Virus record (IMG/VR): IMGVR_UViG_3300027754_005796
Coordinates: 1 to 64,000 of that record
Length of the DNA stretch: 64,000 bases
Direction: 5' to 3' (one strand)
Origin: a virus
Shown piece by piece: positions 3,738 to 56,833 of this stretch. The position numbers were made by a program, and so were the translations under genes. Below the pieces are notes generated by a model, which saw only the letters and a program-made list of their open reading frames with translations, was not told the origin of the DNA and did not search any database. Position 1 is the first letter of the stretch. Every line of letters starts with the position of its first letter.

Positions 3738-4106
3738 TTACCTAAAAGCGTTTTGATCAAAAGATGCAGAAAATTCCGTGCCTTGTCCATTTGCCAGATT
3801 TTCCTGAATGGTTCTACAAGCAATTGTTGCTAGTTCATATGAAACTGGATAACCCACCCAAGCTCCATCTGAAATGTTTCCAATACAAACAGATTGGTTG
3901 CTCTGGGTAGCACAACTGTAAAACCACTCTGCTTTGAAGCAACAATCTGCAAAAGGCGTTCTAAGTGGACAACTTGCAGATGTATTAACGATATTTGAGT
4001 CAGTTTTTTGGGCAGTCAAAGCCTTGCTCATTTGTATTTGACTGTTTCTAATAGCAATCATCGGAACAATTGATGTAGGATTTTTTGTTGGTCTTTGTCT
4101 TGCCAT
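3738..4106 (-). CDS. Hypothetical protein, possible fibre or structural partner
   Basis: The predicted protein has 122 residues and a good ribosome site (AAAGGAG, 5 nt before ATG 4106). I do not recognise a family. The N-terminus is basic (MARQRPTKNPTS). The middle holds several cysteines (SCPLRTPFADCCF, YSCATQSN, VCIGN) and a WVGYPVSYE stretch. It lies 13 nt upstream of the collagen-like gene on the same strand, so both are probably co-transcribed, and a structural or fibre-assembly role is a context guess only. Confidence 0.6.
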   Translation of the reverse strand: MARQRPTKNPTSIVPMIAIRNSQIQMSKALTAQKTDSNIVNTSASCPLRTPFADCCFKAEWFYSCATQSNQSVCIGNISDGAWVGYPVSYELATIACRTIQENLANGQGTEFSASFDQNAFR

Positions 4107-4122
4107 TTTACTCCTTTAATAA

Positions 4123-4404
4123 TTATTTCAGTTCAGGTCCTTGAGTTGCCATCTTTCTTATCAAGTCCGCTAGTGTTCCTTCGCCTGCTCGAACTTTTCC
4201 AATCACTTGTTCTTGAGCTTCATCGCTCAATTCCTTAAATTCTCCCAAACTGTTCAACATACTTATCAAGTTTTCTGGTTCCCAAGTATTGAGTGTTGCA
4301 GACAAACCTTCACTCCTATCTAAATTGAGTTTTCCAAGAACCAAATTCTTGTAAAACTCAAAGTCTTTTTCCTCATCTTCAAGCCAAATTTTGAAACTTA
4401 GCAT
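4123..4404 (-). CDS. Small hypothetical protein with capsid-targeting-like N-terminus
   Basis: This is a protein of about 93 residues starting MLSFKIWLEDEEKDFEF. An in-frame ATG at 4422 would add six residues. I prefer 4404 because GAGAAA precedes it and the F-x-x-W-L signature then lies at the extreme N-terminus, as in six other proteins of this window. The rest is acidic and probably helical (LSDEAQEQVIGKVRAGEG). It is the first gene of the minus operon leading to the collagen-like fibre and is transcribed divergently from 4450. The function is unknown. A virion or prohead protein is inferred from the leader and the late-type promoter. Confidence 0.55.
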   Translation of the reverse strand: MLSFKIWLEDEEKDFEFYKNLVLGKLNLDRSEGLSATLNTWEPENLISMLNSLGEFKELSDEAQEQVIGKVRAGEGTLADLIRKMATQGPELK

Positions 4405-4432
4405 ATATTTTCTCACATACATTAAAAGCCGT

Positions 4433-4444
4433 ATGATATATACA
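4433..4444. promoter_or_regulatory. Divergent TATATA late-type promoter element
   Basis: The 27-nt gap between the divergent starts at 4404/4422 and 4450 contains GATATATAC. Read on the plus strand, TATATA (4437-4442) ends 7 nt before the ATG at 4450, which has no ribosome site. This predicts a start of transcription at or next to the A of ATG. On the minus strand the same box lies upstream of the 4404 gene. The resemblance is to T4 late promoters (TATAAATA). Promoter activity is inferred. Confidence 0.4.
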
Positions 4445-4449
4445 TCTGT

Positions 4450-5262
4450 ATGAACAGATTGTCATTTAGTTATTGGCTTAAAAATGAAATGGCCAATTAC
4501 GGCTTTGGTGATACCACCAACCAGATAATGGGCGGAACCCAGTCAATGACCGGAGATAGCCTTTTTCAGCCTATCAATACATCTTTGATCATGAATGAAC
4601 TGGTCAAAATGCCAAATCTTGGAACTATTGAAGCAAATCAAATTTGGGATGATTGCATCCAATGGGGAACTGAACCCGGAGCTTTTAGCGCATCGATATC
4701 GCCTCTTGGCTCCATGAGAGTAGTCACCAGAAGGCTAACCAAGGACTTAGAAGGCACTCCAACTTGGATTTGCAAAGAAATTTATGGAATCAACGATTTT
4801 GACGACCAGCACAAAGAAAAACATATAGCTCATCGTGTATTTGATGAAATTGTAGAAATGAACAAAGAAAACCTTGATGCTCCTGTAAAAGAATACAACG
4901 ATATTGAAAAACTTGCTTGGAAGCTTTGGCACGCAACCAAAAAACAACATCCTTCATACATCATGTTTCCAACCACGCTCAGAAAACAGGATGAAAATTA
5001 TTACAAGTTAGTTTATGAATTCCGTGGACAGGGAGTTGGGACTCCCAACAACGGAAAAACTGGTCGTGCAGAACAATTCGATATAGATCTTGTCTATTAT
5101 CCAAAAAGAGGCTTAATTCGTTGTTTTGGATATGATATTGACAGCAGAATGAGGCAAAGAGATTGGTATGTATCGACTATGGAGTGGAATGAATTCTTTT
5201 CGCCCCACCAAGATGATACAAAAATAATTGAATCAATTATCAAGATTTTTTTGCAATATTAA
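4450..5262 (+). CDS. Hypothetical protein with capsid-targeting-like leader
   Basis: The predicted protein has 270 residues and starts MNRLSFSYWLKNEMANYG, with the recurring F-x-x-[FWY]-[LI] signature and a glutamate shortly after (WLKNE), comparable with T4 internal head proteins. No known domain is recognised in the remainder. There is no Shine-Dalgarno sequence. A TATATA box ends 7 nt before the ATG, suggesting a leaderless mRNA. The 3' end overlaps the convergent gene 5233-5979 by 30 nt. A head or internal virion protein is a reasonable but unproven guess. Confidence 0.6.
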   Translation: MNRLSFSYWLKNEMANYGFGDTTNQIMGGTQSMTGDSLFQPINTSLIMNELVKMPNLGTIEANQIWDDCIQWGTEPGAFSASISPLGSMRVVTRRLTKDLEGTPTWICKEIYGINDFDDQHKEKHIAHRVFDEIVEMNKENLDAPVKEYNDIEKLAWKLWHATKKQHPSYIMFPTTLRKQDENYYKLVYEFRGQGVGTPNNGKTGRAEQFDIDLVYYPKRGLIRCFGYDIDSRMRQRDWYVSTMEWNEFFSPHQDDTKIIESIIKIFLQY

Positions 5263-40332: not shown

Positions 40333-41544
40333 ATGTGCCCTCGCCGTATAGAAGAGGATCATAAAGATTTTCGTGATGTCGTTTCTGGACGCATCCGCAA
40401 AGCTTTAAAGAAGTTTATTAAAAGCGGACAGATCGTAAGAAATAGGGGCAAAAACGGGAAGATATCAATCAGTATTCCCAAGATTGATATTCCGCACATT
40501 GTCTACGGTGACAGCGGTGAGGGAGCAGGTCGTGGCCCCGGTAAGGAAGGCGATGTAATTGGCAAAGACCCCAAAGGTGGCAAGGGTAATGGTGCAGGTC
40601 AGGGAGAATCTGAAGGTATAAATATCAACCTTGATCTTGAAGATGTTTTGAAATTCATGCAGGACGAACTGCAACTTCCCAACCTCAAAAAGAAACCAAA
40701 TGAAATCTACGATGAAGTGAAAATCAAATACAATAAGATTTCACTTATCGGTCCAGAATCTCTTCGTCACAATAGACGCACCTTGATGCAAACCATGAAG
40801 CGTCAAGCAGCAGAGGGTACTTTAAATAATCTCAAGGTTGTTCCCGGCTTGAAAGACCCTGTACGAGTCTTGCAGCCTATTAATGAGGACAAGCGTTATC
40901 GACAGTTCAGCGAAGTAAAACTGCCATCAAGCAATGCCTTAGTGGTTTTTGCTCGTGACGGCTCAGGTTCAATGGACGAAACCAAGTGCGAAATTGTCAG
41001 CGATATGACTTGGTGGATCGATACTTGGATCAGAAGATTTTATGACCGTGTTGATAGGCTTTATGTCTGGCACGATAGTACGGCTATGGAAGTAGATGAA
41101 GATAAGTTTTACAAATATAGGTATGGCGGTGGCACTACTTGTTCGTCGGCCCTAAAATTCATCACAAAGCAATTTGAGAACAGATACCCGCCTGACAAGT
41201 GGAATATTTATGTGTTTTATTTCACCGATGGGGAAAATTGGGGTGATGACAACGATATTTTCATTAATGCCTTGGCTGAAGAATTTAAACCAAATATCGT
41301 TAATTTTACAGGCATAACTCAAATTCTTGCAGGAACTTATAACGATTCTGTCAAGCATCATGTTGATGATGCCATTAAGAATGGAAAACTTGACAAGGAG
41401 TATGTTCGCACCGTGGCTATTGGAGGCGGGAGCGGAGCAACCCCTTGGTCTATGCCTTCATTGTCTGAGCAAAATAGGAATGAACAAATAATTGATGCAA
41501 TTCAGGTGCTTCTAGGAAATCCAAATAAAGTTTCTCGTGATTGA
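40333..41544 (+). CDS. yeaH: DUF444 (YeaH/YhbH) VWA-domain protein
   Basis: The protein has 403 residues. The N-terminus has the family pattern RRIEEDHKDFRDVVSGRIRKALKKFI, a Gly-rich linker (GEGAGRGPGKEGDVIGKDPK), then the VWA domain with MIDAS VVFARDGSGSMDETK (D-x-S-x-S form, about 207), GGGTTCSSAL and VFYFTDGENWGDD. In bacteria YeaH is co-transcribed with PrkA (YeaG) and its function is poorly known. It overlaps nothing, and the SpoVR gene starts 11 nt downstream. Confidence 0.85.
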   Translation: MCPRRIEEDHKDFRDVVSGRIRKALKKFIKSGQIVRNRGKNGKISISIPKIDIPHIVYGDSGEGAGRGPGKEGDVIGKDPKGGKGNGAGQGESEGININLDLEDVLKFMQDELQLPNLKKKPNEIYDEVKIKYNKISLIGPESLRHNRRTLMQTMKRQAAEGTLNNLKVVPGLKDPVRVLQPINEDKRYRQFSEVKLPSSNALVVFARDGSGSMDETKCEIVSDMTWWIDTWIRRFYDRVDRLYVWHDSTAMEVDEDKFYKYRYGGGTTCSSALKFITKQFENRYPPDKWNIYVFYFTDGENWGDDNDIFINALAEEFKPNIVNFTGITQILAGTYNDSVKHHVDDAIKNGKLDKEYVRTVAIGGGSGATPWSMPSLSEQNRNEQIIDAIQVLLGNPNKVSRD

Positions 41545-41555
41545 GAGGATCAGAC

Positions 41556-44500
41556 ATGTCCAGTAAGTTTTTTCACGGCTCCAGCGTTCTTCTTGGTGAC
41601 AACACAGTTCCCGGTGTGGGGCTTTCCAAGGAATTAAAAGAATTCATTCCCAAGATTCTCCACGCTTGTCGTGAATGGGGCTTGGATTTTCATCCCACGG
41701 TTGTTCAAATGTTGACTTACGATGAGATCAGCGAAATAGCTGCATATGGCGGTTTTCCCGTTCGTTTTCCACATTGGTCTTTCGGCATGGAATACGAAGA
41801 GCTCCAGCGTGGTTACGAATTCGGAATGCACAAAATATATGAAATGGTTATTAATTGCTTAATTTCTTCTGTAAATTTAAGCAGCACAAGGGGTTGCATT
41901 AAAGTTTCCGATGTTGAGGTTGGGGATGTTTTATTCAGCAAGAATGGACCAAGGAAGGTAGTAGCGATTAAAAAGCAACAAAAAAGCAAGGTTTGCAAAA
42001 TCAACGCAATTGGTTATGCACAAGAAACAATTTGTACGCCAAATCATAAGTGGCAAGTCTTAAGAGGGAGCAAGCCCGAATGGGTAGAGGCAGCTAATTT
42101 AGTTGAAGGCGATCTTTTGATTGCAGGTGGTAAGTATGAGAATTTCTTAGGGCTTGCCTCTCGTATTTATTGGTCTAAGGATAAGGTTTTTGAATCGACT
42201 CTGCCGAATGTTAGGTGGAAGTTGGAGGAAATTGATCCTCCAAACCACATGACCGTTGAGCTTGCTGAACTTTTGGGAATTTGCACCGGGGATGGAAGTT
42301 CAGGGGTAAGCGGTTCCGAAAATACAATTGCAATTGCTGTTGGTAAGAAAAACAAGCAATACCAATTGCACATCAAGAATTTGTTTTTTAATGTATTTCA
42401 AAAAGAATCTGCCATATACGAAAAGACGGGCGGCGACAGCGTTACGCTTTGCTCAAAATATGCTGTGGACTATTTCAATGTTATTGGTTTGAAAAAGAAT
42501 GTTACTTTTGAATCAAAAAGGGTTCCGTCTTCAATTTGGCAGTCATCTAACGAGTATAAAGCATTCTTTTTAAGAGGTGTTTTTGACACAGACGGTCATG
42601 TTAAAACTAGTTTGCAAATGTCCAGTAAGAGTTTTGATTTAGTTAAAGATGTACAGCTTTTGCTCCTTGAAATTGGCATTTTCAGTAAAGTGGTCCATGT
42701 TGAAAATAAACATAACAATATTTATGTTTTGTACATTCATGGAAGAAGCAATCAGATTGCTTTTGCAAAATATGTCAATTTTTCAATTCAATATAAGAAG
42801 GAAGCTTTAGAAAATTTGATCAATTCAGGTTATGCAATTGCTCATGGCAATAAGATGCCTGAATTGCAAAAAGAGATACTTAAAAGGTTAGAAGAACTTC
42901 CAAATCCAAGAAAAATCCTGGCTTGGATTAAGAGATGGAAATGGATTTCTAAAAAAAACGATTTGGGCTCAAACTCTTTGTGGAGTTTTGTTTCTAGGCT
43001 TAAAAGTGCGGGTTTTTTAGGCTTTGAAGATTTGCTCCAAATACTAGAAAGTCCTATGTACATAGTCGAAAGTGTTTCCGACTGTGGTGAGGACGAAACC
43101 ATAGACATTGCTCTGGACCACGACGAGCATGATTTCTTGGCGAATGGTTTAGTGTCCCACAACACTAATCCTTGCTATATCTACAATTTAGCTTCTAATA
43201 CTTTGGCCGATCACTTGACTGTTGTTGCACATGCGACTGGCCACAATGATTTTTTCAAAAACAATATTCATTTTTCGGCAACTGATACAAACATGTTGAA
43301 TAAGATGGCTAATCATGGCACTCGTATTCGCAAATATATGGCTCGTTGGGGCAAGGAGAGAGTTGTTGAGTTTCTCGATCATGTAATGCGCCTTGAAACT
43401 TTGATTGATGGTGCTGAGGCTTGGGACGATAGGATTATTAAAGAAAAAAACATTCGTGACGAAAGGCAATATCGCACGCCGAAGAGACTTGTTGTTGATA
43501 AGCAGCGAATGTACATGGAACCTTTCTTAAATACCTCTGAATATCGCAAGAAACAAAACGAAAAGTGCTACGATGCAGACATTTCGGAAGAAATCGGTTT
43601 CTTTAAGCAGCCAACCAAAAATATTCTGGGTTTTTTGAGAGACAATGCCCCTCTTAAACCTTGGCAGGCTGATATTGTGTCGATGCTTTATGAAGAGGCT
43701 ATGTATTTTTATCCTCAGAGGCAAACTAAGGTATTGAACGAAGGATGGGCCTGCGGGGAACGCAATACTTTGGTTGCTACAGATAGGGGTATTTTGACTT
43801 TAGGTGAAATCGTAGATAAGCGATTGCCTGTCACGGTTTATGACGGAGACAACGAGAGGAAGGTCGCTAATTGGTTTACTTTTGAAAACCGTGATGTTTA
43901 TCAGATAGAGACACGGCGTGGATACTTATTTAAGGGATCAAACAATCATCGGGTTATGGGAGATCAAGATTGGGTTCGTCTTGATAACATGAAGATTGGT
44001 CAATCGGTAAAAATTTCTTGTTCCAACCTTTGGACAGAAGAGCTTCAGGCAATTGAATATCAGCCGATCCAAAGGCGAATTGAATTGAAAGAAATTGCTC
44101 AAAAAGCTTCTGTTTCTGTAAGTCAGGTTGCCTACAGGAAGTATCAGTATGAGGGAGAAGAGAAGGCCGACCAATTGGGTCTGCTTTTGAAGGATTACGA
44201 TAATCAAACGGCCACAACCATGAGGAACAAGAGGAAATCTATCGTTTTTCCTTCTTTGATGGACGAGGATTTTGCTTCTTTCATCGGCTACATGATTGGC
44301 GATGGACATATAAGCAAAAAAAAGAGGACTTTGGGTCTTACTACAGGCGATAAAGAGCAATGTGATAATTATGCCTTTTTGTTGGACAAACTTTTTGGTC
44401 TGAGGTGCAAGATTCGCTGGGATAATTCGTCGAAGAATGGAAGATATAGAATTAGCACTAGCTCTAAAGAGCTTGAAGATTTGTTGGTCTATTTGGGATT

Positions 44501-45662
44501 GAAGACTGGCATATGTGCTCGAATCAAGGAAATTCCAGAAATTATTTTGAAGTCACCGAAGAGCGTGGTCGCTGCTTTTATTCGTTCTTATTTTGATTGT
44601 GATGGTTATGCTGGAAATGCTGGTGTGATTCTATCGACATCAAGTGAATCAATGTCAATACAAATTCAGAATGTTTTGCTTAATTTTTCTATCATTTCAA
44701 CAAGACGAAAGCAGCAAGATTCTTGCTGGCATATTCGTATCACCGGCAGCGAAGCAAAAAAATATCATGAACAAATTGGCTTCGGGCTGAACAGGAAGCA
44801 AGACAAGCTCGAAAAATATATTTCTGATCACAAATGGTTTATTGAACCGAAGTTGGAAGATAAAATTGTCTCTGTTGAAAAAATCGGCACCGATGTTGTT
44901 TACGACATCACGGTCGAAACCACTCATCGATATGCTGCCGCAGGGTTTGTAAACCACAACAGCACCGTAGACTCTGTAATCATGGCTGAAATGGGCTTAA
45001 TTTCTCTTGGCCAAAAGAGCGATGATGTAGGCATCGTTGAATATGCAGAGCACAAAATGGGTGTTCTTGGTGGCAAATATAGCACAAATCCTTATAAGCT
45101 TGGTTATTATTTGTTGTCTGATATTCGTGAGCGATGGGACAAGGGCAGGTTTGGGCAGGAGTGGGAGGAGTGCAACGATATGCACAAGAAAGAAACTTGG
45201 GACATCCCGACCAATCAAGGTAAAGATAAAATTTTTGAGGTGAGAAAGTATTATGACGATCTCACTTTCATTCACGAGTTTTTTACAGAGGATTTTTGCC
45301 GTAAGCAGGAATATTTTTACTGGAAACATTATCCCAACGGTGAATATCGTCTTGAGAGTCGTGATTACAAAAAAATCAAACAAATACTCATGCGAAAGCA
45401 TATCAATGGTGGTCTGCCAGATATTAAATTGACTGAGCCGAACTACTCAGGACGAGGAATTATGATGCTCCAACACGAGTATGATGGCAGGCCTTTGTAC
45501 GACCCTTACATTGGTGATGTTCTGTCTTCAATTCGATACATTTGGAACAATGATGTTGTTTTAGCCACGCAGGACAAGACTGGCAAGGAAAAGTTTTATT
45601 TTGCTTCCGGCAACAATACTGTTCAGTTATTGGATCGTCAACAGTTGAAAAAAGTTGTCTAA
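41556..45662 (+). CDS. spoVR: SpoVR-family protein interrupted by two inteins
   Basis: The frame encodes about 1,368 residues. The start is ATG 41556 (AGAGGATCAGAC before it). Exteins are 41556-41855 (100 aa), 43164-43751 (196 aa) and 44961-45659 (233 aa). Joined, they make about 529 residues, the normal SpoVR/YcgB size. Family features are GFPVRFPHWSFGMEYEELQ, then HATGHNDFFKNN (H-x3-H) and LNEGWA, suggesting a metal site completed only after splicing. SpoVR proteins act with PrkA and YeaH in spore cortex or stationary-phase physiology. The inteins fall exactly at IN|T and WA|S, next to these conserved motifs. The stop overlaps the next gene's ATG. Confidence 0.88.
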   Translation: MSSKFFHGSSVLLGDNTVPGVGLSKELKEFIPKILHACREWGLDFHPTVVQMLTYDEISEIAAYGGFPVRFPHWSFGMEYEELQRGYEFGMHKIYEMVINCLISSVNLSSTRGCIKVSDVEVGDVLFSKNGPRKVVAIKKQQKSKVCKINAIGYAQETICTPNHKWQVLRGSKPEWVEAANLVEGDLLIAGGKYENFLGLASRIYWSKDKVFESTLPNVRWKLEEIDPPNHMTVELAELLGICTGDGSSGVSGSENTIAIAVGKKNKQYQLHIKNLFFNVFQKESAIYEKTGGDSVTLCSKYAVDYFNVIGLKKNVTFESKRVPSSIWQSSNEYKAFFLRGVFDTDGHVKTSLQMSSKSFDLVKDVQLLLLEIGIFSKVVHVENKHNNIYVLYIHGRSNQIAFAKYVNFSIQYKKEALENLINSGYAIAHGNKMPELQKEILKRLEELPNPRKILAWIKRWKWISKKNDLGSNSLWSFVSRLKSAGFLGFEDLLQILESPMYIVESVSDCGEDETIDIALDHDEHDFLANGLVSHNTNPCYIYNLASNTLADHLTVVAHATGHNDFFKNNIHFSATDTNMLNKMANHGTRIRKYMARWGKERVVEFLDHVMRLETLIDGAEAWDDRIIKEKNIRDERQYRTPKRLVVDKQRMYMEPFLNTSEYRKKQNEKCYDADISEEIGFFKQPTKNILGFLRDNAPLKPWQADIVSMLYEEAMYFYPQRQTKVLNEGWACGERNTLVATDRGILTLGEIVDKRLPVTVYDGDNERKVANWFTFENRDVYQIETRRGYLFKGSNNHRVMGDQDWVRLDNMKIGQSVKISCSNLWTEELQAIEYQPIQRRIELKEIAQKASVSVSQVAYRKYQYEGEEKADQLGLLLKDYDNQTATTMRNKRKSIVFPSLMDEDFASFIGYMIGDGHISKKKRTLGLTTGDKEQCDNYAFLLDKLFGLRCKIRWDNSSKNGRYRISTSSKELEDLLVYLGLKTGICARIKEIPEIILKSPKSVVAAFIRSYFDCDGYAGNAGVILSTSSESMSIQIQNVLLNFSIISTRRKQQDSCWHIRITGSEAKKYHEQIGFGLNRKQDKLEKYISDHKWFIEPKLEDKIVSVEKIGTDVVYDITVETTHRYAAAGFVNHNSTVDSVIMAEMGLISLGQKSDDVGIVEYAEHKMGVLGGKYSTNPYKLGYYLLSDIRERWDKGRFGQEWEECNDMHKKETWDIPTNQGKDKIFEVRKYYDDLTFIHEFFTEDFCRKQEYFYWKHYPNGEYRLESRDYKKIKQILMRKHINGGLPDIKLTEPNYSGRGIMMLQHEYDGRPLYDPYIGDVLSSIRYIWNNDVVLATQDKTGKEKFYFASGNNTVQLLDRQQLKKVV
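41856..43163 (+). mobile_element. Intein 1 in SpoVR (436 aa, LAGLIDADG)
   Basis: The intein begins with Cys (CLISSVNLSSTRGCIKVSDV), contains block B-like TICTPNHKW, and ends with DEHDFLANGLVSHN followed by Thr as the +1 residue. The central homing endonuclease has two DOD motifs: LAELLGICTGDGSSG and FLRGVFDTDGHVK. All splice-site residues (Cys1, His-Asn end, Thr+1) are present, so splicing should work. The insertion splits YEMVIN|TNPCYIY, a conserved region of SpoVR. Confidence 0.9.
43752..44960 (+). mobile_element. Intein 2 in SpoVR (403 aa, LAGLIDADG)
   Basis: The intein starts CGERNTLVATDRGILTLGEI (Cys1, block A), has block B GSNNHRVMGDQDW, two endonuclease motifs FASFIGYMIGDGHIS and AFIRSYFDCDGYAG, and ends YDITVETTHRYAAAGFVNHN with Ser+1. 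Splice residues are complete. It splits NEGWA|STVDS, inside the most conserved SpoVR motif. Sequence similarity to intein 1 is low, implying independent invasion. Confidence 0.92.
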
Positions 45663-47664: not shown

Positions 47665-49121
47665 ATGAGCAAAGAAAGATCATGTGTGGAGATAGTAGGT
47701 TATGAGCACCTACATCTCCACACAGATTCCTTGCCCCCGGCAGAATATCTGTCGGGGGCGCAAAAAACTTTAGTACGCTTGACGGATATGGGACTGTAGA
47801 GGAGTATGCCTTAAGGTCCATTTCAAATAATCAGAATTTTCTCACGGTTACAGATCATGGAATGATGGGTGTCATTCCACGGCAAATTCGAGCCTGCGAC
47901 AAGATTTGTGACAAACACGGCAAAGATAAACTATCTCCAATATTTGGATGTGAATTGTATGTAAATCGTCTTCAGCCAGCTACTGAAGGCTTGGAAGACA
48001 TGCGTAAGTTTATGGCCGATCTCAATGAGGAAGAGGCATTTGAACTCAAGGCTAGTCCTCATCTTTTGGCAATTGCATACAACGAAACGGGTTATAAAAA
48101 TCTGGTCAGACTTTCCAGTTGGGGTTGGACTAAGGGCTTTTATCGCCGCCCCAGAGTCAACTATGAACAGTTGCAAAAGTATAAAGAGGGTTTGATATTT
48201 ACAAGTTGTTGTTACAACAGCGAAATTGGTAGAGCCTATGAGGCTGGTGGCGAAGAAGCCGCCTGTGCCATGATCGAGCGATATGTTGGCATGTTTGGCA
48301 AAGAAGACTTTTATCTTGAAATCATGCTCTTGGATTTCAAGAAACAAAAACCCTATGACGCTTTCATAGTCAAAGCCAAAGAAAAATATGGTTTGAAATT
48401 AATCATTACGAACGATGTGCATTATTGTAATAAGCAGGACAGTCATTTTCAAAGATTGATGCTCATGGTTCAGACAAACAGGAGTATCAAGGATATTCAG
48501 CGTGCTTTGGCCGAAGACAATATGCGAGACTTTTTTGAATTGCAGGATTCTAATTTGTGGTTTAAGTCCGAAGAGGAATTAAATGAAAAGTGGATCGTTG
48601 AATACAGCGATGTGATTCCTTATGAGTTATTTTGCGAAGCAAAGCGCACTACTGTTGAAGTTTGCCGTAAGGCTAAAGGTGTAGAACTTGACCGGAGTCT
48701 TAAACTTCCGCAGATACCTAATGCTGATGATATTTTGAAAGATGAAGTTCTGAGGGGTGCGAAGTTCCGTGGAATTCCACACACGAGAGAATATTTAAAT
48801 CGAATCAAGGAAGAATACAGCTTGATCATTCGTAAGGGCTTTGCAAGTTACTTTTTGATACAAAAGATGATGACAGACGAGGCACGCAGAGTTTGCGTTG
48901 AGCTTCTTGGGTGGGGAGATGGTTCGCAAGCTTTGGGTCCCGGTCGTGGGAGTGCTGTGGGAGCTTTGACTTGTTACTGCTTGGGTATTACGAATGTTGA
49001 TCCCGTGAGAGAAGGATTGTTGTTCAGTAGATTTCTTTCTGAGGCCCGTGGTGGCAGGTCTTTGGTCCTTGAGTTCAAAAATATTGATCCATTGCCGCCA
49101 CATGAGGCTTTTAAAGATTAA
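47665..49121 (+). CDS. dnaE: DnaE (DNA polymerase III alpha) N-terminal half, needs recoding
   Basis: Translation starts at ATG 47665 (MSKERSCVEIVGYEHLHLHTD), the first strand of the PHP domain. This frame stays open to TAG 47797-47799. The rest of the PHP domain (FSTLDGYGTVEEYALRSI, then LTVTDHGMMGV) continues in the -1 frame from about 47769 to 49121. The downstream part has FGCELYVN, TNDVHYCNKQDSHFQ and the palm motif GPGRGSAVGALTCYCLGITNVDP. It ends just before the PDIDID catalytic segment, which is encoded at 54086. No start codon exists in the second frame before 47862, so frameshifting, bypassing or a sequence error must join them. It is followed by a terminator. Confidence 0.7.
47683..47767 (+). 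other. Candidate recoding signal in dnaE (two hairpins, A6 run)
   Basis: Hairpin A pairs 47683-47700 with 47708-47724 (17 bp, one bulged A, 7-nt loop) and covers the codons before the HTD motif. Hairpin B pairs GCCCCCGGCAGA (47733-47744) with TCTGTCGGGGGC (47748-47759), a perfect 12-bp stem with a 3-nt loop. A6 follows (47762-47767). About 41 nt between GAT (Asp, 47725) and TTT (Phe, 47769) have no counterpart in DnaE; skipping them gives H-T-D-F-S-T-L-D-G, the family sequence. A -1 slip on A6 would instead insert 14 residues. The layout recalls T4 gene 60 bypassing, but take-off and landing codons (GAT, AAC) do not match. Confidence 0.5.
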
Positions 49122-50265: not shown

Positions 50266-50615
50266 GGGGTTGTACTGGTATCGATTCAGACTCATAATCC
50301 CTAAGTGGCACGCAGAGGTTGGCCGAACGGACTCTTAAAAATTCGGCTGTCGATATAAACGACGAAACTGTTCACGCTTTGGCTGCTTAATTTAAGCAAC
50401 CACGAACCTAGGGGGCGATGTGGGTAGCGCCCGAAGGTTCGACGCTAAATCCTGCTGGTTTTGTGGCTCCAACGACCACTTAACGAGACAAAGTTGGTAA
50501 GGCCGAAGCAAGTTTTGTTCTTGGTACTTGCAAGGTTTGATTAAACAAAGAAACAAGCGTGTAGAGGCTTAGAGAGAGTGGTTTGAAGACAGGGGTTCAA
50601 CTCCCCTCAACTCCA
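50266..50615 (+). ncRNA. ssrA: Transfer-messenger RNA (tmRNA)
   Basis: 5' GGGGTTG (50266-50272) pairs with CAACTCC (50608-50614) as a seven-pair acceptor stem with one G-U; discriminator A is 50615. The T arm AGGGG-TTCAACT-CCCCT lies just before. The CCA is not encoded (CTA follows). The tag frame reads GAT ATA AAC GAC GAA ACT GTT CAC GCT TTG GCT GCT TAA (50352-50390), giving D-I-N-D-E-T-V-H-A-L-A-A if GAT is the resume codon. The A-L-A-A end is the ClpXP-type degradation signal. tmRNA rescues stalled ribosomes. Phage copies are known from some large phages. Confidence 0.93.
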
Positions 50616-50617
50616 CT

Positions 50618-51998: not shown

Positions 51999-53537
51999 AT
52001 GATTCTTGCAGCATACGGCTACCACGATTCAAGTGTGTGTCTAAAAGATGGTGATCAATATTTTGTTTATGAGTTTGAGCGTTTTGCAAGAAGACGCTAT
52101 GCCGTATTAACTAAATGGTATATTGCACCGCACCAGATTGTTACAGATGAAGAATTTTTGGGGTTTTTCGATCACATCAAACAACAACACAAATTAAAAG
52201 AAATTGATGTATTTTATCATCATGAAATTTATCCTGATGATATCACACTCATCAAAAAACTGTTTGATGTAAAAGAATTTGTTCGATACGACCATCATTA
52301 CGCTCACGCAGCAAGTGTTTATAGACAAAGTCCTTTTCAAGACTGTTTCATCATCTCATACGATGGCAACGGCCAGAATAAAGATGATAGCATGAGTAGT
52401 TTCACCTTTTGGGAGGCGAGAAAAAATAAAATCAATTTGATCAAGGACTTTCAGCCTTGGGAACCATATAGTCTGGGCAACTGTTACATTTCGTTGTCTG
52501 GCGCTATGTCTTCAATAAAAAGCCATGAGAATTTGTCACGCCCCGGAAAATTGATGGGATTTTCGGGATATGGGACGGCAGTTGAGGCTTGGAAACCTCA
52601 TTTTGAAAAGTTTTTTGAGGGTGGTCATATCGAACACTTTGAAGAACTTCGTCACAATTTGGATATGAGTTTGGACAGAGACAGCTTGTCTGGTCAAATC
52701 GAAATGGATTTCGCAGCAACCATTCAATGGGCATTTGAAAATAAATTTTTCAAAGTTTTTAATTCTTTGAACATTCCGTCTGGTGCTAATATTTGCATAA
52801 CAGGTGGATGCGCCTTGAATATTTTGGTTAATCAGCGTTTATTCGACATGGGCTACAAGGTTTATGCTTCGCCTGTAAGTGGCGATTGCGGTCTTACTAC
52901 GGGCATGGTTGCCGATTATTATGGCGACAGAAATGTTGATGTCACATATCAAGGTTTTGATATACTAGACAAGGACTACAGAGATAGTGCTTTTACGGAG
53001 AAGCCTGTAAACACCGCAGAACTTGCGAAAATGCTTTGTTATGATCGAAAGATTCTTGGATATATTTGTGGACGCAGCGAAGTTGGACCAAGAGCTTTAG
53101 GCAATAGAAGTATTTTGTGTTATCCAGACATAGCTGGACTTAAAGATCGTCTTAATGCTGAAATTAAATTCAGAGAATGGTACAGGCCTTTTGGTGCTAT
53201 CTGCAAACTCGAATCTCTATCCAAATACTTTGAAAATGCTTGCGAATCACCATACATGAACTTCTGTCCTGTGTTAAAGCCTGAATACAGGTTTGATTCG
53301 ATTACTCATATTGACCAGACTTGTCGAATTCAGACTGTCACTCGTGAACAACACCCAGAAATCTATGATTTGTTGACAGAAATGGAAAAACTAGGCGCTG
53401 TGGGTCTTTTGTTGAACACATCTTTCAATATAAAAGGCCTACCAATTTTGACAAGACTCAAGGATGCATTTGACAGTATGCATCAAACCAAATTAGATGG
53501 TTTTTATTTCAATGGTAGGTATTTTGGAAGGAATTGA
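51999..53537 (+). CDS. NodU/CmcH-family carbamoyltransferase
   Basis: The protein has 512 residues. YDHHYAHAASVYRQSPF (about 95) is the family's H-H-x-x-H-A metal/adenylate site. FIISYDGNGQNKDDS, ITGGCALNILVNQRLF, YASPVSGDCGLTTGM, CGRSEVGPRALGNRSIL and KFREWYRPFGAI are all NodU/CmcH/TobZ signatures. It transfers a carbamoyl group from carbamoyl phosphate via carbamoyl-AMP to a hydroxyl, typically on a sugar. The gene follows a GT2-MT fusion, so a carbamoylated glycan is likely; hypermodified DNA is the alternative. Confidence 0.9.
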   Translation: MILAAYGYHDSSVCLKDGDQYFVYEFERFARRRYAVLTKWYIAPHQIVTDEEFLGFFDHIKQQHKLKEIDVFYHHEIYPDDITLIKKLFDVKEFVRYDHHYAHAASVYRQSPFQDCFIISYDGNGQNKDDSMSSFTFWEARKNKINLIKDFQPWEPYSLGNCYISLSGAMSSIKSHENLSRPGKLMGFSGYGTAVEAWKPHFEKFFEGGHIEHFEELRHNLDMSLDRDSLSGQIEMDFAATIQWAFENKFFKVFNSLNIPSGANICITGGCALNILVNQRLFDMGYKVYASPVSGDCGLTTGMVADYYGDRNVDVTYQGFDILDKDYRDSAFTEKPVNTAELAKMLCYDRKILGYICGRSEVGPRALGNRSILCYPDIAGLKDRLNAEIKFREWYRPFGAICKLESLSKYFENACESPYMNFCPVLKPEYRFDSITHIDQTCRIQTVTREQHPEIYDLLTEMEKLGAVGLLLNTSFNIKGLPILTRLKDAFDSMHQTKLDGFYFNGRYFGRN

Positions 53538-54085: not shown

Positions 54086-56833
54086 ATGAGTCGTGAAGAA
54101 TTTATACATGTTTTGGACAAGGCATTCAAGAATAGCGGACACGCCAATGATGTCCGTTATCAGAAAAGGTATAAGTGGGAATTTGATGAGATTTTAGGGA
54201 AAGAAAAATACCAGTATTTTTTTGATCTGTATAAAACAAAAACTCGCTATCCGCAGAATCAAAACAATCTTTTGGTCTGCAAGTTATTGGGAATTGTTCC
54301 CGATTTTGATATAGATAAAGAACCCGCCTATGTTTTTACAGGCGATTTGCCAGATATCGATATCGACTACTTGCCTGCTGTGCGTGATTATTTAAAAAAC
54401 ACTTGGGCAAGTAAGACATTTGGCGAAGAGTATGTTTGCAATATTGGGAACTACACTACTTTTGGATTAAAGTCCGCTCTGATTGACATGGCTCGTGTCC
54501 ATGATGAATCTCGTGAAGAGATAATGGCGATTACTAAAAACTTAGAGGCGAAGGATGATGAAGGTAATCCCATGACTTGGGACGCTGCCTTGCGTTTGAA
54601 TTTAGAGCTTAAGGAGTATGCTGATAAGTATCCACAGATCGCAGATGCTGCTCGTAGATTGGTGAACCGCAATCGTGGCATGGGTGTTCATGCTGCTGGG
54701 CTTATTGTTTCAAGCATTCCCCTGCATGATCTTGTGCCCTTGGTGAAAAGAAAAGATACCCCACAGGCATCGGCATGGGTGGAAGGCTTGCATGGTCAGG
54801 ACTTGCAGCCTGTAGGGTTGGTAAAGTTTGATTTACTGGTTATTTCAAACTTATTGCAGATTGCTCGGTGTTGTGAATTGGTTAAGAATCGTCGTGGCTT
54901 AAAGGGCATTTGCAATCGTCCAAACGAACCCGACTGGACAGATGTTGATCAATGGCGAAACGATCCTGAAGCACTTTCGATGGCAAATGCCGGTGATCTG
55001 AAGTGTATTTTCCAGTTTGATAGCGAGGGCATGCGAGGTCTTATCCGTTCTGGTGGTGTTGATCGATTTGAAGACTTAGTGGCCTATTCTGCGCTTTTTA
55101 GGCCGGGTTGCTTAGCGTCAGGTATGACCAAGCGTTATGTTGAACGCAAGAAGGGTCGTGAGAAATTTTCTATCCATCCTCTGATGCAGCCCATTCTTGA
55201 AAAAACTTATGGGATTATGGTCTATCAAGAACAAATCATGCAGGTATTGTATGTGGTCGGTGATATTCCTTTAAAAGACTGTGAAATTATTCGTAAAGCG
55301 ATCAGTAAGAAGAAGATTGAGGCTTTTATCAAATATAAAGAAATGTTCATTGTCAATGGACAAAGGAATCTGCAAGCTTCAGAAGAATATTTGGTTGAGC
55401 TTTTTCAGCAGGTCGAGACATTTTCAGAGTACGGGTTTAACGCTTCTCATGCAGTTGCTTACAATTACATTTCTAGCATGTTGTTGTATCTCAAAGCCCA
55501 TTATTCTCATGAGTTCTATGCTTCTATGTTGAGTTGTGAAACTCTGAGTGAAAAAATCAAGGATTACAAAATGGAGGCCAAGGTGCATGGGGTGGACATG
55601 CATCGTCTTGATATCAATAAATCTAAGGTCAATTTTGAATTGATTGGCGATATGATTTATTATGGGTTTTCAAAGGTGAAGGGAATAGGAGACAAACCAG
55701 CAGAAAAGATTGTCGCTGGGCAACCTTACAAATCGTTCGAGGACTTTTTGTATCGTTGCACAACTGACTCATCTATTTTGAAACCAATTCTTGGTTTGCG
55801 TTGTTTTCGTGATCGTGATCCAGTTGTGCTTTGGAAGTTTGCTGATCATTTCAAAGACTGCATGAAAAAGAATGACGATAAAAAAAAGCGATATGAAAAG
55901 TCGTTGGAAAAGTATGAAATGGAGTTCAAGGAGCTTGTCCCATCTGATACTAGACTTTTGAGTGATTTTTCCGGCGATCAGCCTTTTGATGCTGATGAAT
56001 GGAAAAAGTACGATGTCAACGAACTAGTGGATGTGGATCAAGAAACTGAGTGCGAGCAGTCCGAGGGAGGCGAGGCAAGGATCGTTAAGGAAGAAGTGAC
56101 AGTTGATGATACTGATGTGTTGGTTGAGCGTGAAGTCACACGCTATTTCAAGATTGTAAAAATCAAAAAGCCTAGAAATGTTTTGGTGCAATTAAAGAAG
56201 TTGTGGAAGAAGCGAAAGCTGACCATAGATCGCCGTATGAATGCGACTTTCAAGGAATTGCCTCAGTTGGTTGAGTTTAATGGTGATGAGCATCAAATTG
56301 ATGATAGTCTTTTGAAGGAATTGCGTGATCCGGTCCAATGTGAGCAGCTTTATTATGGATGGGCTTGGATACATGAATTGGAGCGCAGTCCAGACTACAA
56401 GGGGAATCTGACTTTTGATGCTCTTCGCAACAATATTGATCAAGTTGCAGGTCCTGCGGAATTACAGATTAAGAAAAGCGCATCTGTAAAGAGTCAGAAG
56501 GGAACGACATATAGGCAGATAATTGCTGAGGATGTGACTGGACAGGAGAATAAGATCAATATTTGGGCCGAGGATTGGGGGCGTTGGGCAGAAGAATTTA
56601 AAGTTGGTAACTTACTTAGAGTACGGATACAGCCTCCGTCTGGCGGGTTCAATACTTTTACTTTGGAATCGAACCAGCTAGGCAAATACCGTGGCAGCAA
56701 AAAATATCGGGACAAGGATGATGATCCAAGGGTTTTTGTCATGCAATTTGGCAAGAAAGAAGAGGAAAAATTTCTTAGCGACGAGGAGGCATTGTTACAG
56801 TTTTCGGCTTGTAAAATGAAAGAGAAACCATGA
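54086..56833 (+). CDS. dnaE: DnaE (DNA polymerase III alpha) C-terminal half
   Basis: The protein has 915 residues. After a unique 75-residue N-terminus, FTGDLPDIDIDYLPAVRDYL (about 86-105) carries the catalytic aspartates, then RGMGVHAAGLIVSS, CIFQFDSEGMRGL, RPGCLASGMTKRYVERKKG, YGIMVYQEQIMQV (thumb/fingers) and FNASHAVAYNYISSMLLYLKAHY. An HhH region (FSKVKGIGDKPAEKIV, about 530) and an OB-fold (KGTTYRQIIAEDVTGQENKIN, about 810) follow. The PHP and GS motif lie in the other gene, 5 kb upstream. The active site must therefore be assembled from two chains. A charged insertion (about 590-720) is unusual. Confidence 0.88.
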   Translation: MSREEFIHVLDKAFKNSGHANDVRYQKRYKWEFDEILGKEKYQYFFDLYKTKTRYPQNQNNLLVCKLLGIVPDFDIDKEPAYVFTGDLPDIDIDYLPAVRDYLKNTWASKTFGEEYVCNIGNYTTFGLKSALIDMARVHDESREEIMAITKNLEAKDDEGNPMTWDAALRLNLELKEYADKYPQIADAARRLVNRNRGMGVHAAGLIVSSIPLHDLVPLVKRKDTPQASAWVEGLHGQDLQPVGLVKFDLLVISNLLQIARCCELVKNRRGLKGICNRPNEPDWTDVDQWRNDPEALSMANAGDLKCIFQFDSEGMRGLIRSGGVDRFEDLVAYSALFRPGCLASGMTKRYVERKKGREKFSIHPLMQPILEKTYGIMVYQEQIMQVLYVVGDIPLKDCEIIRKAISKKKIEAFIKYKEMFIVNGQRNLQASEEYLVELFQQVETFSEYGFNASHAVAYNYISSMLLYLKAHYSHEFYASMLSCETLSEKIKDYKMEAKVHGVDMHRLDINKSKVNFELIGDMIYYGFSKVKGIGDKPAEKIVAGQPYKSFEDFLYRCTTDSSILKPILGLRCFRDRDPVVLWKFADHFKDCMKKNDDKKKRYEKSLEKYEMEFKELVPSDTRLLSDFSGDQPFDADEWKKYDVNELVDVDQETECEQSEGGEARIVKEEVTVDDTDVLVEREVTRYFKIVKIKKPRNVLVQLKKLWKKRKLTIDRRMNATFKELPQLVEFNGDEHQIDDSLLKELRDPVQCEQLYYGWAWIHELERSPDYKGNLTFDALRNNIDQVAGPAELQIKKSASVKSQKGTTYRQIIAEDVTGQENKINIWAEDWGRWAEEFKVGNLLRVRIQPPSGGFNTFTLESNQLGKYRGSKKYRDKDDDPRVFVMQFGKKEEEKFLSDEEALLQFSACKMKEKP

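Follow-up and report, generated by a model that had tools for sequence, protein, structure and literature searches.

How can a replication gene yield its protein when its first codons and the remainder of its first domain lie in different reading frames? This question is raised by dnaE in a stretch of viral DNA of 64,000 nucleotides, positions 1 to 64,000 of the IMG/VR record IMGVR_UViG_3300027754_005796, which is referred to here as the window. The answer that we consider likely is that the 41 nt between the two frames form a programmed translational-bypass segment akin to that of T4 gene 60, spread or protected by HNH homing. The support for this answer is comparative only, without protein, RNA, or ribosome data.

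Reading frames of dnaE in the window

Translation of frame A, on the plus strand, runs from ATG 47665 to the codon GAT at 47725-47727 and gives MSKERSCVEIVGYEHLHLHTD, a first open reading frame (ORF1, 47665-47727, 21 codons) that matches the N-termini of relatives with uninterrupted ("clean") dnaE and includes an in-frame GTG at 47686 as a possible alternative start. By alignment to the clean alleles, GAT encodes Asp7 of the HLHLHTD motif and is the putative take-off codon. Past GAT, frame A continues through SLPPAEYLSGAQKTLVRLTDMGL and then reaches a stop. Frame B, which is the -1 frame, opens at TTT 47769 with FSTLDGYGTVEEYA, leads to LTVTDHG and remains open to 49121 (ORF2, 47769-49121, plus strand); it encodes the remaining PHP domain and the first part of the polymerase domain, up to the natural end of the DnaE N-half. 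The resumed sequence, FSTLDGYG, is without a start codon, and no in-frame ATG, GTG, or TTG was found between TTT 47769 and the DHG motif.

The two frames are separated by exactly 41 nt (47728-47768, plus strand), composed of TCCT, TGCCCCCGGCAGA-ATA-TCTGTCGGGGGCG, and CAAAAAAC. In Pfam, frame B corresponds to the PHP domain from position 7 on, and the first residues that it lacks are those encoded by frame A; in the aligned dnaE of clean relatives, HLHLHTDFS.LDG is unbroken. The gap and the two frames are thus established, and three claims of the first-pass annotation, namely a frame change in the PHP domain, a separation of exactly 41 nt, and the absence of a usable start between, held upon translation and alignment.

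The stop at 49121 is unrelated to the anomaly. In this phage group, DnaE is normally encoded in two parts, as relatives' DnaE ends at the same place and the C-half, comprising the rest of PF07733, the finger domain, and HHH_6, is encoded at 54086-56833 (plus strand); a split intein at 49121 was rejected on the same grounds. Two other genes of the window may be recorded here. A phage-encoded tmRNA with the tag peptide DETVHALAA lies at 50266-50616 (plus strand), as one also does in the relative L033 (8616-8974), and its position next to a gene in which the ribosome would stall by design may be mere coincidence, although tmRNA is a rescue RNA. A carbamoyltransferase gene at 51999-53537 (plus strand), close to glycosyltransferase-like genes, possibly serves glycan or DNA modification.

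Gaps and hairpins among relatives

Relatives were gathered by protein, alignment, and DNA-pattern searches of viral contigs. Among 73 distinct dnaE 5' ends, 37 are clean, with the pattern HLHLH-T/S-D-F-S-x-L-D-G, 33 have short interruptions, and 3 have group I introns. Three further interrupted cases were recognized later (L123, L139, on a contig of a Neisseriaceae genome bin, and L250, which is highly divergent), bringing the interrupted alleles to 36. The 41 nt of the window are missing in all 37 clean alleles and have homologues of 40-42 nt in L195, L196, L199, and L200. A DNA-level search of annotated phages returned a single weak hit. Among the cultured or annotated phages that were read, dnaE is uninterrupted in Francesca, phiT1, and the huge phage LR756511, most of the 1,310 cultured matches remaining unread; that of NiceHouse is also uninterrupted, judged from the annotated CDS only.

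The gaps measure 5, 6, 7, 8, 40, 41, 42, 46, or 47 nt, so that each of the three frames is represented. Those whose length is a multiple of 3 invariably include an in-frame stop, and gaps of all lengths restore the same protein motif. One rule, resumption at the same protein position, therefore fits all gaps, and no single frameshift does. Recoding of TAG or TGA was rejected, as it cannot fix the frame. In type 1, the take-off codon is that of His5 (CAY) and the gap, of 5-8 nt, always opens with TAG or TGA. In type 2, take-off is at Leu11 and the arrangement is CTT TAA CTA, CTC TAA CTT, or CTT TAA CTT, which amounts to a 6-nt stop hop between matched codons; L139 has a variant one step further 5', ahead of the last His (CTT TGA CTA), and the layout in L250 is CAT TAG CTG CAT. 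Type 3 gaps, with take-off at Asp7, are 40-47 nt long with a strong hairpin and occur in the window, L195, L196, L199, L200, L048, L027, and L222. One allele, L062, has two gaps, of 8 and 46 nt. A stop codon (TAG, TGA, or TAA) directly follows the take-off codon in 24 of 24 alleles with 5-8-nt gaps, as well as in L048 and at the second gap of L062. There is none after take-off in the window, where GAT is followed by TCC.

Two hairpins flank the take-off codon of the window. The upstream one lies within the coding sequence (47683-47724, plus strand), with arms at 47683-47700 and 47708-47724 forming 17 bp around a bulged A47694, and its 3' arm ends on the base immediately 5' of GAT. The minimum free energy (MFE) of the 48 nt 5' of GAT is -25.3 kcal/mol, whereas synonymous resampling gives -8.0 on average (z -6.6; 0 of 400 as low). 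The gap hairpin, TGCCCCCGGCAGA-ATA-TCTGTCGGGGGCG (47732-47760, plus strand), has 13 bp including two wobble pairs, one an internal G.U and the other a terminal U.G, and starts 4 nt past GAT; whether it folds in the A site is not determined from sequence. It is found again in four other alleles, the 40-42-nt homologues, with sequence variation and with pairing kept. The 17-bp upstream hairpin of the first-pass annotation accordingly held, with its one bulge, whereas the claim of a perfect 12-bp gap hairpin failed in detail. A search of all viral contigs for the gap-hairpin motif returned only dnaE loci, in no other gene, plus one unrelated GC-rich hairpin (L197).

The coding-sequence hairpin ends on the base before the take-off codon in every class (one base earlier in L196), so that its end lies 0-1 nt 5' of the take-off codon at three different sites, His5, Asp7, and Leu11. 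For this placement, types 1 and 3 were assessed together and type 2 from 72-nt windows; the exception is L139, in which a 9-bp stem takes in the take-off codon itself. Mean hairpin MFE is -17.1 kcal/mol for type 1 (n=20) and -22.1 for type 3 (n=8), while 31 clean alleles, each taken at the best of three positions, average -7.7 (Mann-Whitney p 4e-10 versus interrupted), and mean z against synonymous resampling is -3.5, -5.5, and -0.07, respectively. Some type-1 and all type-2 alleles do not individually reach p 0.01 in such resampling. Clean genes lack the take-off hairpin, the folding energy in sliding windows peaks at the take-off codon, and the hairpin follows this codon from site to site. 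The type-1 hairpins also covary: 4 of 11 pairs are changed on both sides, 165 of 165 pair cells are standard (15 distinct rows), the covariation score was reached by 0 of 500 shuffles, and slid versions are only 40-52% paired. This design at several codon positions favors a role at the take-off event over a simple block to initiation. When HNH loci and the window were searched for a hairpin, codon, and stop ahead of long frames, only the dnaE cases were found (4 hits among 982 tested stops).

Mobility and neighboring selfish elements

Close relatives differ in whether dnaE is clean or interrupted. When the five states are mapped on a tree of the DnaE body, built by a quick search method, 25 changes are required, and at least 16 switches between clean and interrupted fall on supported branches of the dnaE tree, so gain and loss have been recurrent. 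Two pairs of relatives reveal what moves. L281, which is clean, and L200, whose gap is 40 nt long, share 99.1% identity over 2,258 nt, as far as 46 nt short of the HLHLH motif; beyond this point, L200 has about 1.2 kb bearing an HNH gene, together with a rewritten start of dnaE, and the two sequences are similar again directly past the gap. Similarly, clean L063 and L127, which has a 7-nt gap, share 95% identity upstream, after which come 0.85 kb present only in L127, HNH gene included, and then 90% identity. These empty and occupied sites show, for the relatives and not for the window, that HNH endonuclease gene and gap were inserted together.

The ORFs upstream of the gaps match the HNH endonuclease family PHROG 559 (E 1e-15 to 1e-21) and have in common the invariant motif DHIFP.KAF...N.L.NL.P...N; the proteins are recognized by PHROGs and unrecognized by Pfam. 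HNH genes or their remnants adjoin 13 of 33 interrupted alleles versus 3 of 37 clean ones (Fisher p 0.003; tree-aware median p 0.03). No HNH gene was found in the window's own record. Since L195 and L196 have the same cassette-like leader as the window, as far as a point about 34-39 nt short of the motif, the window may be a copy from which the nuclease has been lost.

Several observations extend beyond the interrupted alleles. An HNH gene lies directly upstream of three clean dnaE alleles (L153, 1964-2773; L108, 2-1258; L022, 2687-3655), and altered target-motif residues in L108 and L153 could represent resistance by substitution. The same HNH family also occurs upstream of a primase-like gene and other apparently uninterrupted genes (L168; L166-L167). 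In the cultured Rhodococcus phage Francesca (L381), an endonuclease VII gene (1059-1532) overlaps the start of uninterrupted dnaE, resembling the HNH genes that overlap dnaE in L196, L199, and L200.

Group I introns use the same part of the gene. Rfam confirms them in dnaE of L033, L056, and L132, all within the same 12 codons: that of L132 lies exactly between GAT and TTC, which is the D|F insertion point of the window, and in L033 and L056 the intron precedes the Leu11 site by a few bases. Although the sites are the same, the short gaps are far too small to be such introns and have no counterpart in Rfam; gap and group I intron were not found to be similar in sequence, and no Rfam match to a group I catalytic core was found in the window. 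Inteins were seen as well. The dnaE of L022 (about 3750-5000) and L054 (about 4000-5000) has a LAGLIDADG-type insert at G|CELYVN, a second insertion hotspot in the gene, and a SpoVR-like gene of the window (41541-45662, plus strand) is apparently interrupted by two inteins with LAGLIDADG domains.

Proposed bypassing, its rivals, and known systems

The least improbable rival, itself unlikely, involves no bypass: the first piece would end early, a shorter DnaE would be made from a downstream start, and the hairpin with its short ORF would be an expression-controlling leader or damage. In its favor, the hairpin overlaps the start region, a ribosome-binding site lies a few bases before the left arm in many short-gap alleles, and methionine codons are present at a DHGMMG motif. 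However, in 20 of 32 interrupted alleles the stretch from landing to SDHG is devoid of in-frame start codons, and in the remaining alleles no Shine-Dalgarno sequence precedes any such start. Furthermore, the codons from landing to DHG, along with HLHLH, are conserved as in clean genes, and the hairpin shifts together with the take-off codon. Reinitiation was rejected as well. A recent inactivating insertion, as the first-pass annotation had also considered, is contradicted because the downstream frames are intact, with about 430-450 open residues after the gap in all interrupted alleles with complete loci (about 820 with an intein), and because the hairpins covary.

Removal of the segment from RNA by a minimal splicing-like or cleavage-ligation reaction is very unlikely. 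It could draw on the group I introns at the same D|F point (L132) and at a nearby point (L033, L056), and the gap hairpin would bring the two ends together; yet gaps of 5-8 nt cannot be any known kind of intron, the window has no Rfam intron, and a stop directly after the take-off codon is meaningful only for translation. There is even less to recommend a -1 ribosomal slip or polymerase slippage at the A6 run (47762-47767), by which the gap would be read through and 14 residues added. An A6 run does precede the frame change in the window, L195, and L196, and the gap of the window has no in-frame stop. Nevertheless, the shift required at the same A6 would be +1 for a homologous gap of 40 nt, -1 for one of 41 nt, and 0 for one of 42 nt, A6 is missing in L199 and L200, and TAA stands in the loop of L196, L199, and L200. 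A constant shift direction at a conserved slippery site was not found, gap lengths modulo 3 being 0, 1, and 2 among homologues. An assembly or sequencing error, which might be suspected in a single metagenome-derived record, is all but excluded for the window and is refuted for the family, given that interruptions recur in 36 alleles, drawn from numerous independent metagenomes and from one contig of a genome bin (L139), and that there are homologous 40-42-nt elements. The slip and the error had both been listed as alternatives in the first-pass annotation, and neither stands.

The bypassing proposed in that annotation, on the other hand, is supported by the comparative data, as clean relatives lack the gap, homologous and analogous gaps cover every frame, and the upstream hairpin keeps to the take-off codon from one site to another; synthesis of a joined protein has not been shown. 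In the inferred mechanism, the ribosome would translate 21 codons to GAT, where peptidyl-tRNA-Asp would release the mRNA, slide across 41 nt, re-pair imperfectly at AAC (47766-47768, plus strand, including the end of the A6 run), and resume at TTT, with the predicted product ...HLHLHTD-FSTLDGYG... joined within HLHLHTDFSTLDGYG. The upstream hairpin could refold only as the ribosome moves forward and would thus act as a ratchet, while the gap hairpin of the window would replace the stop codon and A-site structure used elsewhere. In the absence of a long nascent-peptide signal, the hairpin ratchet may do more of the work, and it is this step that most needs experiment.

Landing is likewise inferred. 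In 26 of 27 distinct inserts, the take-off tRNA pairs with at least two positions of the triplet that precedes the resumed codon; take-off and landing codons are matched in L127, L044, L051, and L250, and in the window AAC pairs with the Asp tRNA of GAT at 2 of 3 positions. This pairing favors re-pairing of the peptidyl-tRNA. However, the control over landing offsets is not clean, as the neighboring offsets +2 and +6 score high, possibly because the triplet stems from a duplicated His or Asp codon, and the evidence on landing is therefore moderate. Other features that count against bypassing in the window are the lack of a stop after take-off, the lack of an HNH gene in the record, the mismatch of AAC to GAT, and the length of ORF1, which at about 21 codons is too short for a nascent-peptide signal like that of gene 60, a short signal not being excluded.

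Within this bypassing model, the element of the window would be one member of a family at a phage dnaE hotspot, with either 5-8-nt gaps (stop-codon hops from His or Leu) or 40-47-nt gaps (from Asp or Leu), acquired together with an upstream HNH endonuclease gene and probably shielding the site from that nuclease; such protection from cleavage is an inference. A bolder reading, toward which the balance tips only slightly, is that natural bypass elements form a mobile family for which phage dnaE is a hotspot and which includes the first 5-8-nt stop-codon hops found in nature. A refolding hairpin fixed to the take-off codon would drive the hop without a long nascent-peptide signal, and the elements, having arisen or been exchanged on many occasions, would serve an HNH homing cassette as its resistant allele. 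If true, what passed for a T4 oddity would be a whole mobile family. The 36 alleles, with varied gap lengths, take-off codons, and hairpins beside clean sister genes, would offer a natural mutational series for ribosome release, sliding, and landing, and the link to HNH genes would open the origin of the gaps to testing, the proposal being that they are the protected form of a site targeted by a selfish cassette.

For efficient programmed bypassing in bacteria, T4 gene 60 has been essentially the sole case. There, translation halts on GGA, the codon ahead of UAG; a small stem-loop moves into the A site, and sliding is powered by EF-G, while 5' and take-off stem-loops refold behind the ribosome and keep movement forward (PMC11194080). 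The ribosome crosses gaps as long as 56 nt at a processivity of 99% for each nucleotide (PMC11194080), and the locus carries the HNH gene mobA (PMC3014915). The dnaE family is similar in having a non-coding gap near the start of a replication gene that is missing in relatives, an upstream stem-loop, a stop after take-off in most members, and an HNH endonuclease gene at the locus. In addition, the 40-47-nt class is near the T4 gap of 50 nt (PMC11194080; PMC3014915; PMC5009743), and all dnaE gaps are under the 56-nt T4 limit. Unlike gene 60, the family is found in the PHP domain of dnaE, in many phages and at several insertion sites, with gaps down to 5 nt; take-off is from His, Asp, or Leu rather than Gly, landing codons often match at two positions only, and the leader of about 14-21 codons leaves no room for a long nascent-peptide signal. 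The window differs further in its lack of a stop codon and an HNH gene.

The byp elements of Magnusiomyces mitochondria are likewise short inserted blocks skipped in translation, with imperfect matches between take-off and landing (PMC5009743). They are reportedly mostly independent of mRNA context and occur in many genes, whereas the dnaE gaps have a strong hairpin for each take-off codon and occur in one gene. Counterparts of bypassing over shorter distances have long been presumed and not found (PMC5009743), and no natural in-frame stop-hop was known as of a 2016 review (PMC5009743), prior reports outside the open-access literature not being excluded. Synthetic stop-hops in Escherichia coli, in which matched codons surround a stop, have the same or nearly the same layout as L051 (CTT TAA CTT), L044 (CTC TAA CTT), L139 (CTT TGA CTA), and L250 (CAT TAG CTG CAT). 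However, these are known from constructs only, whereas the dnaE cases are natural and hairpin-bearing.
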